From assembly GCF_014204915.1 (NCBI RefSeq), contig NZ_JACHMH010000001.1, positions 1,364,001 through 1,428,000 on the forward strand: a stretch of DNA of 64,000 nucleotides. The letters run 5' to 3'. The stretch comes from Crossiella cryophila. Lineage in GTDB: Bacteria > Actinomycetota > Actinomycetes > Mycobacteriales > Pseudonocardiaceae. The position numbers and the translations under genes are program-made. The notes below the pieces were generated by a model, which was not told the origin of the DNA, made no database searches, and saw only the letters and a list, made by a program, of their open reading frames with translations. This document shows, in pieces, positions 32,673-37,085 of the stretch. Position 1 is the first letter of the stretch; the number at the start of each line of letters is the position of its first letter.

Positions 32673-34484
<1,812 letters not shown>

Positions 34485-34497
34485 CTAACCGGGGGAG

Positions 34498-34590
34498 AGA
34501 CCGGCGCGAACAACGCAGCCAGAACTCCGCGACGAGGTGCCGGTCTGGTCAGACCCCGTCGCGGCAGCGAAGGAGCAGACCGCGTGCCAC
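34498..34590 (-). promoter_or_regulatory. leuA attenuation leader with mutually exclusive helices
   Basis: On the - strand, helix A pairs CCGCGACG (34557-34564) with CGTCGCGG (34527-34534), enclosing GGTCT/AGACC (34542-34555). Helix B pairs AGACCGGC (34539-34546) with GCCGGTCT (34498-34505). The two share 34542-34546 and cannot coexist fully. The arrangement follows the Leu-rich leader peptide and ends shortly before the leuA ribosome site, as expected for ribosome-mediated attenuation. Confidence 0.7.
34549..34590 (-). CDS. leuL: leuA leader peptide MARGLLLRCRDGV
   Basis: A 13-codon ORF whose codons 5-7 are CTG CTC CTT, three consecutive leucines. It is initiated by GTG and ends in TGA 83 bases before leuA. 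A -10-like TAGGCT lies 6 nt before the GTG (with TTCTCA 18 bp further up), so the message starts at the start codon (leaderless). When charged tRNA-Leu is scarce, ribosomes would pause here and alter which helix of the leader forms. Leu-rich leuA leaders are known in actinobacteria; this case is inferred. Confidence 0.72.
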   Translation of the reverse strand: MARGLLLRCRDGV

Positions 34591-34625
34591 CGGAGGAGCC
34601 TAGCCCGCCATCAGGTCCGATGAGA
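34591..34625 (-). promoter_or_regulatory. Leaderless promoter of leuL-leuA
   Basis: Reading the - strand, TTCTCA is followed after 18 bp by TAGGCT, which ends 6 nt before the GTG of the leader peptide. Confidence 0.5.
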
Positions 34626-34705
34626 AAACTGTCCCGGATCGTGGGAGTGTCGGGCACCCTACTCGCGGGTAGCCCGACCCGGCGCGGCATGCGAGACTGC
34701 GGCGC

Positions 34706-35041
34706 ATGGCCGAACACTCCGAGCGTCGCCGCCACCGCGGGAACTCGGCCCTGACCAGGGCCAGGATCGTCACCGCGGTGGCGGCGACACTGCGCTGGAT
34801 CGGCACGATCGCCGCGGTGGTGCTGGTCGCGCACGTGGTGCTCACGGTGGGCGGCGCCAACCCGGCCAACGCCATCACCCGCTTCGTGGCGAGCTGGGCA
34901 GACCCACTGGCACTGGGCTTCCGCGACCTGTTCATGCCCGAGGACCCCAAGGCCCGGATCCTGGTGAACTACGGGCTGGCCGCGGTGTTCTGGCTGATCG
35001 TCACCTCACTGGTGGTCAAGATCATCCGTCGGCTCGGCTGA
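34706..35041 (+). CDS. Small membrane protein of unknown function
   Basis: A 111-residue protein with a basic N-terminus (HSERRRHRGN), two hydrophobic segments (about 24-46 and 86-104) and the linking loop WADPLALGFRDLFMPEDPKA. Resembles small actinobacterial membrane proteins without a named family. It diverges from leuA's leader and ends ten bases before the converging epoxide hydrolase gene. Confidence 0.65.
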   Translation: MAEHSERRRHRGNSALTRARIVTAVAATLRWIGTIAAVVLVAHVVLTVGGANPANAITRFVASWADPLALGFRDLFMPEDPKARILVNYGLAAVFWLIVTSLVVKIIRRLG

Positions 35042-36409: not shown

Positions 36410-36835
36410 TCAGACCTCGACCACGGTGACCATGTCGTCCAACCCGGCGAAGTCGGCCACGTTGCGGGTGTAGAGCGGCAGGTCCCTGGCGGAGGCGATG
36501 GCGGCGATCATCAGGTCCAGCCTGCGCGGCCTGGGGCTCCGGTTGGCCTCCAGGGTCAGCGCGACCAGCGTGCCGTAGCGGGCGGCCGCCTCGCGGTCGA
36601 AGGGCAGCGGCTCGAATTCCACGATGGCGGCGCCGAGCTTCTCGGCCCGTGCCGCCCTGGTGGCCGCGTTCTTGGCCATGGCCACGCCCTGGTGCAACTC
36701 CGCCAGGGTGATCGAGGTGATCTCCGGGAACGAGGGCAGCACGGCCAGGTCGAGTTGATCGAGGTCGATGAACGCGCAGGTGTCCAGGACCCCTGCCTCG
36801 GGACGGTCAGCCACCGGCACGCGTCCACGGGTCAT
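36410..36835 (-). CDS. vapC: VapC-type PIN-domain toxin
   Basis: A 141-residue PIN-domain ribonuclease. Acidic active-site residues are in [16 protein letters not shown] (Asp), [13 protein letters not shown] (Glu), [15 protein letters not shown] (Asp) and the terminal [11 protein letters not shown] (Asp). It overlaps the antitoxin gene by 29 bases, the usual arrangement. Expected to cut tRNA or rRNA when the antitoxin is degraded. Confidence 0.9.
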
Positions 36836-37085
36836 CGTCGTCGATCCGGCCCTCGGTGCCGAAGAACTCGTCGGCCTCCTGCCGCAGTTGCCGGGAGTCC
36901 ACCCTGGGCAGCTTCCGGTGCCGCTCCACCAGTTCCTCGGCGCTGAGCCTGCGCCGACGGGACAGCGGGCGCAGTTCCGCCACCGGCACGCCGTTGCGGG
37001 TGATGTGGTAGGTCTCGCCCGCCTCCACCGCGTCCATGACGGAGGCGGAGTTGTTGCGGAATTCCCGCTGGGTGAGGACCTTCAT
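36807..37085 (-). CDS. vapB: Phd/YefM-type antitoxin
   Basis: A 92-residue antitoxin with the Phd-fold N-terminus ([20 protein letters not shown]) and the [23 protein letters not shown]-binding/dimer region, followed by an acidic C-terminus ([10 protein letters not shown]) that would sit on the toxin. The ATG is 7 nt from TACACT (37093-37098 region, - strand), a leaderless promoter. A TGTAGC/GCTACA dyad (37095-37123) could be its autorepression operator. Confidence 0.9.

Follow-up and report, generated by a model that had tools for sequence, protein, structure and literature searches.

In enterobacteria, leuL is an attenuator that works through a choice between a terminator and an antiterminator. 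The closest described system to the locus reported here is the LEU element of Actinobacteria (Seliverstov, Putzer, Gelfand and Lyubetsky 2005; PMC1262725), comprising a leader ORF with a run of Leu codons, a pseudoknot, and a base stem in which the Leu codons pair with the Shine-Dalgarno (SD) sequence of leuA. Its authors found it upstream of leuA and within one transposase gene, and their text mentions neither a leaderless start, nor a codon bias, nor elements at leuB or leuC. They favoured a protein-binding role for the element, since mutants of the S. coelicolor leuA leader (Craster et al. 1999) had, in their account, shown effects inconsistent with classical attenuation; their candidate for the regulator was the DEAD-box-containing ML1624 family.

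Leaders of this kind have also been reported from individual species. The LeuL1 leader of S. lividans leuA is described as transcribed leaderless and as having no typical Rho-independent terminator, and the same report describes this for other Actinobacteria leuA leaders, citing Seliverstov 2005, Neshat 2014 and Wolf 2017 (PMC8079986). Leaders or upstream ORFs of leuA are also in print for C. glutamicum, C. diphtheriae (with the start site left unassigned there) and M. abscessus; the one in C. glutamicum was found by RNA-seq and carries four consecutive Leu codons (PMC4046766). Finally, the actinobacterial ilvB attenuators (PMC1262725; Mtb ilvB1, PMC13236596) place a leader with codons for branched-chain amino acids, among them GTA and CTT, behind a -10 motif, and end in a terminator hairpin with a U run.

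The locus studied here lies in a stretch of 64,000 nt from Crossiella cryophila, which we call the window. Its element is a further case of the LEU element: a Leu-codon ORF, a pseudoknot and a base stem between the Leu run and the SD all lie before leuA, so that gene, phylum, leader, pseudoknot and base stem are those of the published system. The first-pass annotation had described a 13-codon ORF with the codons CTG CTC CTT on the minus strand, and this ORF is present (Table 1). It had put the ORF 83 bases before leuA; we counted 82 nt between the leader stop and the leuA ATG. Behind the GTG start, the leader reads GCA CGC GGT, then the Leu run, and then CGC TGC CGC GAC GGG GTC before the TGA stop. 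The C-terminal part of the encoded LeuA (window 32682-33068; contig 1396682-1397068) matches the LeuA allosteric domain, PF08502, with 101.8 bits, over the cut-off. On the same strand as leuA, we also observed two adjacent short ORFs (36410-36835 and 36807-37085, minus strand), whose translations we take to resemble a VapC-type nuclease and its antitoxin.

Table 1. Leader and leuA features in the window.
Feature	Position	Strand	Remark
Leader ORF GTG...TGA, 13 codons, M/V-ARGLLLRCRDGV	34590-34549	-	read from sequence
Regulatory Leu codons CTG CTC CTT	34570-34578	-	read from sequence
-10-like hexamer TAGGCT	34602-34597	-	ends exactly 6 nt before leader GTG
leuA, 2-isopropylmalate synthase, 597 aa	32673-34466	-	ORF translation; ATG 34466-34464
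Pseudoknot helix A, 5' strand, 11 nt	34564-34554	-	pairs with 34537-34527
Pseudoknot helix A, 3' strand	34527-34537	-	pairs with 34564-34554
Pseudoknot helix B, 5' strand, in helix A loop, right after leader stop	34539-34546	-	pairs with 34505-34498
Pseudoknot helix B, 3' strand	34498-34505	-	pairs with 34546-34539
Base stem 5' strand GCTCCT, inside Leu codons	34571-34576	-	pairs with AGGAGC
Base stem 3' strand AGGAGC, leuA Shine-Dalgarno	34478-34483	-	pairs with GCTCCT

Two helices fill the space between leader and leuA. Helix A has a perfect 8-bp core, CCGCGACG/CGTCGCGG (34564-34557/34534-34527), that can be extended to 11 pairs, and helix B, AGACCGGC/GCCGGTCT, pairs perfectly as well. Both had been noticed in the first-pass annotation, which took them to share bases and to be mutually exclusive. 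The helices are real, but that relation between them is ruled out, as they have no base in common. Their strands follow the order 5'A-5'B-3'A-3'B, so that the two helices form an interleaved H-type pseudoknot, and the leader stop codon falls between their 5' strands. Folded in isolation, the leader reaches -58.2 kcal/mol (z -2.36; 4 of 200 shuffles were equally good), and the minimum free energy fold contains the stem between Leu codons and SD, helix A and a different nested hairpin where helix B would be.

The locus differs in these respects from classical attenuators of the leuL or trpL type. No intrinsic terminator-like site was found in 34300-34800, which includes the stretch from the leader to leuA, and helices A and B are not alternatives; where leuL has a terminator and an antiterminator, the window combines a pseudoknot with an SD stem and has no terminator, and the terminator hairpin with U run reported for the ilvB attenuators is likewise missing from its leader. 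A search with Rfam 15 gave six gathering-score matches in the window, none of them in the leader; within 34440-34640, an E-value limit of 10 let through three matches, all below gathering (the best at 20.4 against 38 bits). At 16 element loci, Rfam 15 gave no family match.

To place the element among its relatives, we gathered 238 leuA loci, of which one was a duplicate, leaving 237. They came from a family search (30 loci; 98 of 100 genomes matched), a class search (29 new loci, with matches in 191 of 197 genomes), a set of named loci (the 80 best of 592) and 99 further stretches from the class; distant leuA genes are under-sampled, because the loci are the best-scoring ones plus 99 of the further class places. 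Loci based on PF08502 begin too near the leuA start. An ORF with three consecutive Leu codons (LLL) lies upstream of leuA in 230 of the 237 distinct loci, and one of the remaining seven has the LLL frame behind a CTG start. The gap between leader and leuA, which depends on the chosen leader start, measures 50-112 nt in 208 of the 230. In loci L378-L382, all from one family, the leader ends in ..LLL(S/T)RP or ..LLLSCP, and its TAG stop falls inside the 5' strand of helix A.

The covariation search of leuA upstream regions that the first-pass annotation had proposed was performed on 150 of 156 non-redundant leaders, all but the six with the widest gaps. It confirmed that the helices are kept in relatives, and that the pseudoknot covaries. 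In helix A, 98.4% of alignment cells are paired and 8 of 11 pairs have changed on both sides; the corresponding values for helix B are 82.1% and 93.0% for its two parts, with 6 of its 8 pairs changed in this way. Of the three helices, the base stem is the weakest, with 76.3% of cells paired and 2 of 6 pairs changed on both sides when read in the window's register, and this register varies between species. Pseudoknot and base stem together contain 191 double-changed cells against 42.0 in shuffles that keep relatedness in, and none of 500 shuffles reached 191. Sliding the helix partners by 1-3 columns lowered pairing from 89.5% to 43-59%. The leader features are real and more than chance, with the comparative evidence being decisive.

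The -10-like hexamer had been noted 6 nt upstream of the leader GTG, and its position is exact. A scan of 34300-34800 with the sigma-70 consensus found no promoter, so the assignment rests on the match to TANNNT and on its conserved position. Among the 230 leuA leaders, 155 have a TANNNT motif that ends 6, 7 or 8 nt upstream of their start, and 16 more have it before another in-frame start; the other 59 have neither form, some of them with a TAAACT somewhat further away. An SD-like 5-mer before the leader start was found in none of the 230. The window leader is probably leaderless, with the ribosome loading on a bare 5' end as had been suggested. Whereas the leaderless start of S. lividans LeuL1 was seen by RNA-seq (PMC8079986), ours is read from the position of the -10 motif. 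Neither of the two details put forward as new in the first-pass annotation is so: a leaderless leuA leader is in print for S. lividans in that same report, and the complementarity between the codons and the ribosome site is part of the LEU element as described in 2005 (PMC1262725).

This complementarity, GCTCCT in the Leu codons against AGGAGC over the leuA ribosome site, is itself present as claimed, is conserved, and is co-adapted in relatives. Since species differ in the register of the base stem, we tested the pairing without an alignment, by computing the duplex between each Leu-run stretch and its own 24 nt before leuA and then permuting the partners 2000 times. The mean energy with the own partner was -14.19, compared with -12.75 +/- 0.18 for permuted partners (n=208, z -7.9), and no permutation was as low. 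When partners were exchanged only within clusters of like sequences, which were built from RNA-core similarity and not from a species tree, the observed value of -14.48 still lay below -13.73 +/- 0.14 (n=164), again with 0 of 2000 as low. The same tests gave no signal in two control windows: for the 24 nt that lie further upstream, z was 0.1 and -0.6, and for the 24 nt that directly follow the leuA start codon it was -1.2 and 1.1. As judged from these comparisons, the Leu run and the leuA ribosome site evolve together, since own-partner duplexes beat permuted ones while the control windows stay flat.

The Leu codons are also of an unusual kind. The last three Leu codons of the 156 leaders are CTT in 43.6%, CTC in 41.0% and CTG in 14.7%, compared with 0.6%, 14.6% and 80.7% in the leuA ORFs of the best 80 of 592 named loci; CTT and CTC together thus make up 85% of the former and 15% of the latter. 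By standard wobble rules, both are read by one tRNA with the anticodon GAG. The final Leu codon is CTT in 117 of 156 leaders and CTC in 38, and a T occupies the third base of 40.0% of codons in the Leu run (208 leaders), as against 17.1% of the preceding other leader codons. Pairing with the SD alone is insufficient to account for this choice, because resampling synonymous Leu codons at leuA usage weakened the SD duplex by only about 1.7 sd (mean -13.90 +/- 0.14 against -14.14 observed, n=156).

Leaders that precede other genes share the habit. The Leu run of leuS leaders from one genus ends in CTT in 30 of 30 loci, some of these leaders being identical to the reported LeuL2 peptide of S. lividans (PMC8079986), and leuS leaders of Streptomyces were listed in 2005 as candidate classical attenuators (PMC1262725). 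Similarly, the ilvB leaders of Pseudonocardiaceae, for which a candidate was found in 29 of 30 loci, use the rare codons GTA, CTT and ATT. With this shared preference and a resampling null near the observed value, we rejected the view that the codon bias merely follows from SD pairing. It is better explained by stalling, although a structural constraint on the last CTT or its T may still contribute. For E. coli, there is an established theory that leaders draw on the isoacceptor which responds most sharply to starvation (PMC1183508). The likeness to enterobacterial leuL would lie in ribosome stalling at rare Leu codons as the sensor, CUA there and CUU or CUC here.

To find the RNA core elsewhere, we built two covariance models, R1 from the leuA core of 85 sequences with Leu-run leaders, and R2 from mixed leaders. 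In its own 10-Mb genome, R1 gave one strong match at 68.4 bits, followed by two weak ones at 25.8 and 25.5 bits without a credible leader. It matched 111 of 118 genomes of the class, several of them at two or three places, and 12 of 119 genomes in a sample of the phylum, two of these outside the class; one of those two (33.1 bits) had no leader. The 69 loci behind the R1 and R2 matches were classed as 27 before leuB, 5 before leuC, 22 before leuA or leuA-like genes, 3 before LeuA-domain-like genes and 5 before ilvB, the remaining 7, among them the leaderless match outside the class, being dropped from the gene counts as having no leader with an assigned branched-chain gene.

The 27 elements upstream of leuB, which lie near base 300 of the oriented loci, retain the core and exchange the codons. 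Thirteen were found with R1 and then entered the training set of R2, while the other 14 were found with R2. Their leaders, for example MLWTVRILRCRDEAR, MRFVLILRCRDGA, MRSVFVLIDCRGEA and MRKQLVVIACRGGAS, carry Val and/or Ile in the run in all 27 loci and LLL in none. Rare synonyms are again preferred relative to the leuB ORFs behind: GTA for 25 of 42 Val codons (1.2% in the ORFs), ATT for 11 of 27 Ile codons (2.9%) and CTT for 18 of 39 Leu codons (1.7%). The gene ilvE follows leuB in 23 of the 27 fetched stretches. IlvE serves all three branched-chain amino acids.

In an alignment of mixed leaders (13 leuB loci and one locus before a LeuA-domain-like protein), 13-14 of 14 sequences are paired at every position of helix A. 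Helix B is better than in shuffles (p<=0.05) at 13 of the 27 leuB loci and at 2 of the 3 LeuA-domain loci, and is unsupported at leuC, where 0 of 5 loci reached this level. The leuB start lies about 225-743 nt behind the element, and a small ORF before leuB starts at about 100 nt in some loci and at 200-310 nt in others. Because these distances vary and are long, the step controlled at leuB may differ, and an SD stem is unlikely at leuB loci with long spacing. A conserved small ORF between the element and leuB, with an end like ..QEAMDRRDNGGETGH or ..LDLRDGGGQRPDDN, was seen in 23 of the 27 loci; four such peptides matched no Pfam or NCBIfam model.

All five leuC elements encode LLL, as do 19 of the 22 before leuA and leuA-like genes, where the others have TVL, LFL and FLL. 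In three Mycobacteriales genomes, elements with Leu/Val codons stand before a stand-alone protein resembling the LeuA allosteric domain; the PF08502 cut-off of 24.9 bits is passed by two of these proteins, with 26.3 and 27.9, and missed by the third, with 13.4. The stretch before ilvB in five Pseudonocardiaceae loci was matched weakly by R2, at about 28-35 bits. A distant kinship of the core with ilvB leaders is possible from this similarity, which is too weak for a claim of homology.

We consider it likely that the LEU element is an instance of a modular RNA device with a fixed core and exchangeable codons, in which Leu runs would serve leuA and leuC, and runs of Val, Ile and Leu codons would serve leuB-ilvE and, in a few genomes, stand-alone LeuA-domain proteins. 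The codon-swapped leuB elements look new: the literature matches listed contained no earlier report of them, and a 2010 comparative paper of Lyubetsky's group, outside that scope, may hold one.

For leuA itself, the reading we prefer, with fairly good though not full confidence, is that its translation is controlled by ribosome stalling on a leaderless LEU element. Transcription would begin close to the leader GTG or at it, leaving a bare 5' end for a ribosome to load on. When leucine is plentiful, this ribosome would pass CTG CTC CTT and leave at the stop codon, which lies after the 5' strand of helix A and before that of helix B. The Leu-codon strand, now free, would pair with the leuA SD while the A/B pseudoknot folds between and holds the strands together, turning leuA off. 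When leucine is scarce, the Leu codons would act as sensors of Leu-tRNA: a ribosome waiting on them would cover the base stem's 5' strand, so that the SD stays free and leuA is on. We infer the direction of control, translation initiation rather than transcription as the controlled step, and the start site in this strain. The leuB elements, which keep the RNA core but carry Val/Ile/Leu codons in 27 of 27 loci, agree with the codons as the sensor. Against stalling count the weak pairing of the base stem, the small effect of codon resampling on the SD duplex, the presence of a -10 motif at 6-8 nt in only 155 of 230 leaders, the long spacing between element and gene at leuB loci, and the S. coelicolor mutant work as told in PMC1262725.

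The same parts could act at the level of transcription, which we regard as unlikely. The ribosome on the leader would then decide whether RNA polymerase stops before or in leuA, through Rho acting on untranslated leuA or through an unrecognised structure, with the pseudoknot and SD stem acting through the loss of translation. In its favour, a small-RNA study recovered the leader of C. glutamicum leuA with the short transcripts (PMC4046766), another paper describes this leader as possibly involved in transcription attenuation (PMC3890552), and a transcription attenuator is reported for Mtb ilvB1 (PMC13236596). However, no terminator-like site lies in 34300-34800, S. lividans LeuL1 is reported as lacking a typical terminator (PMC8079986), and the codon run has the SD itself as its conserved target.

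Still less probable, in our estimate, is the role favoured by the authors of 2005, to which we prefer stalling. In such an element, the pseudoknot would bind a regulator and the Leu run would matter only as an RNA strand. Their argument drew on the mutants and on a shared distribution (PMC1262725), and the retention of the RNA core where the codons change agrees with it. Against it count the switch of the leuB elements to Val/Ile/Leu codons, matching the leuB-ilvE operon, and the preference for rare synonyms in the leuB leaders, as with GTA, and in the leuS leaders. A chance meeting of a short three-Leu ORF with GC-rich complementarity in a GC-rich intergenic region, for which the modest single-sequence z and the commonness of GC-rich helices might speak, is refuted by the comparative data, namely the LLL leader in 230 of 237 leuA loci, the covariation and the single strong match in the own genome (68.4 against 25.8 bits).

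The comparison makes the long-standing doubt about the LEU element, protein or codons, accessible to test, including by codon swap. The co-evolution of Leu run and SD, the rare synonyms and the leuB codon switch on the same core point to ribosome stalling. As a family for which Rfam 15 gave no match here, the elements would also be useful for annotating the control of branched-chain amino acid genes in Actinomycetes. If the modular reading is true, the swap of codons on a conserved core would be natural-experiment evidence that the signal is tRNA charging and not a bound ligand or protein.
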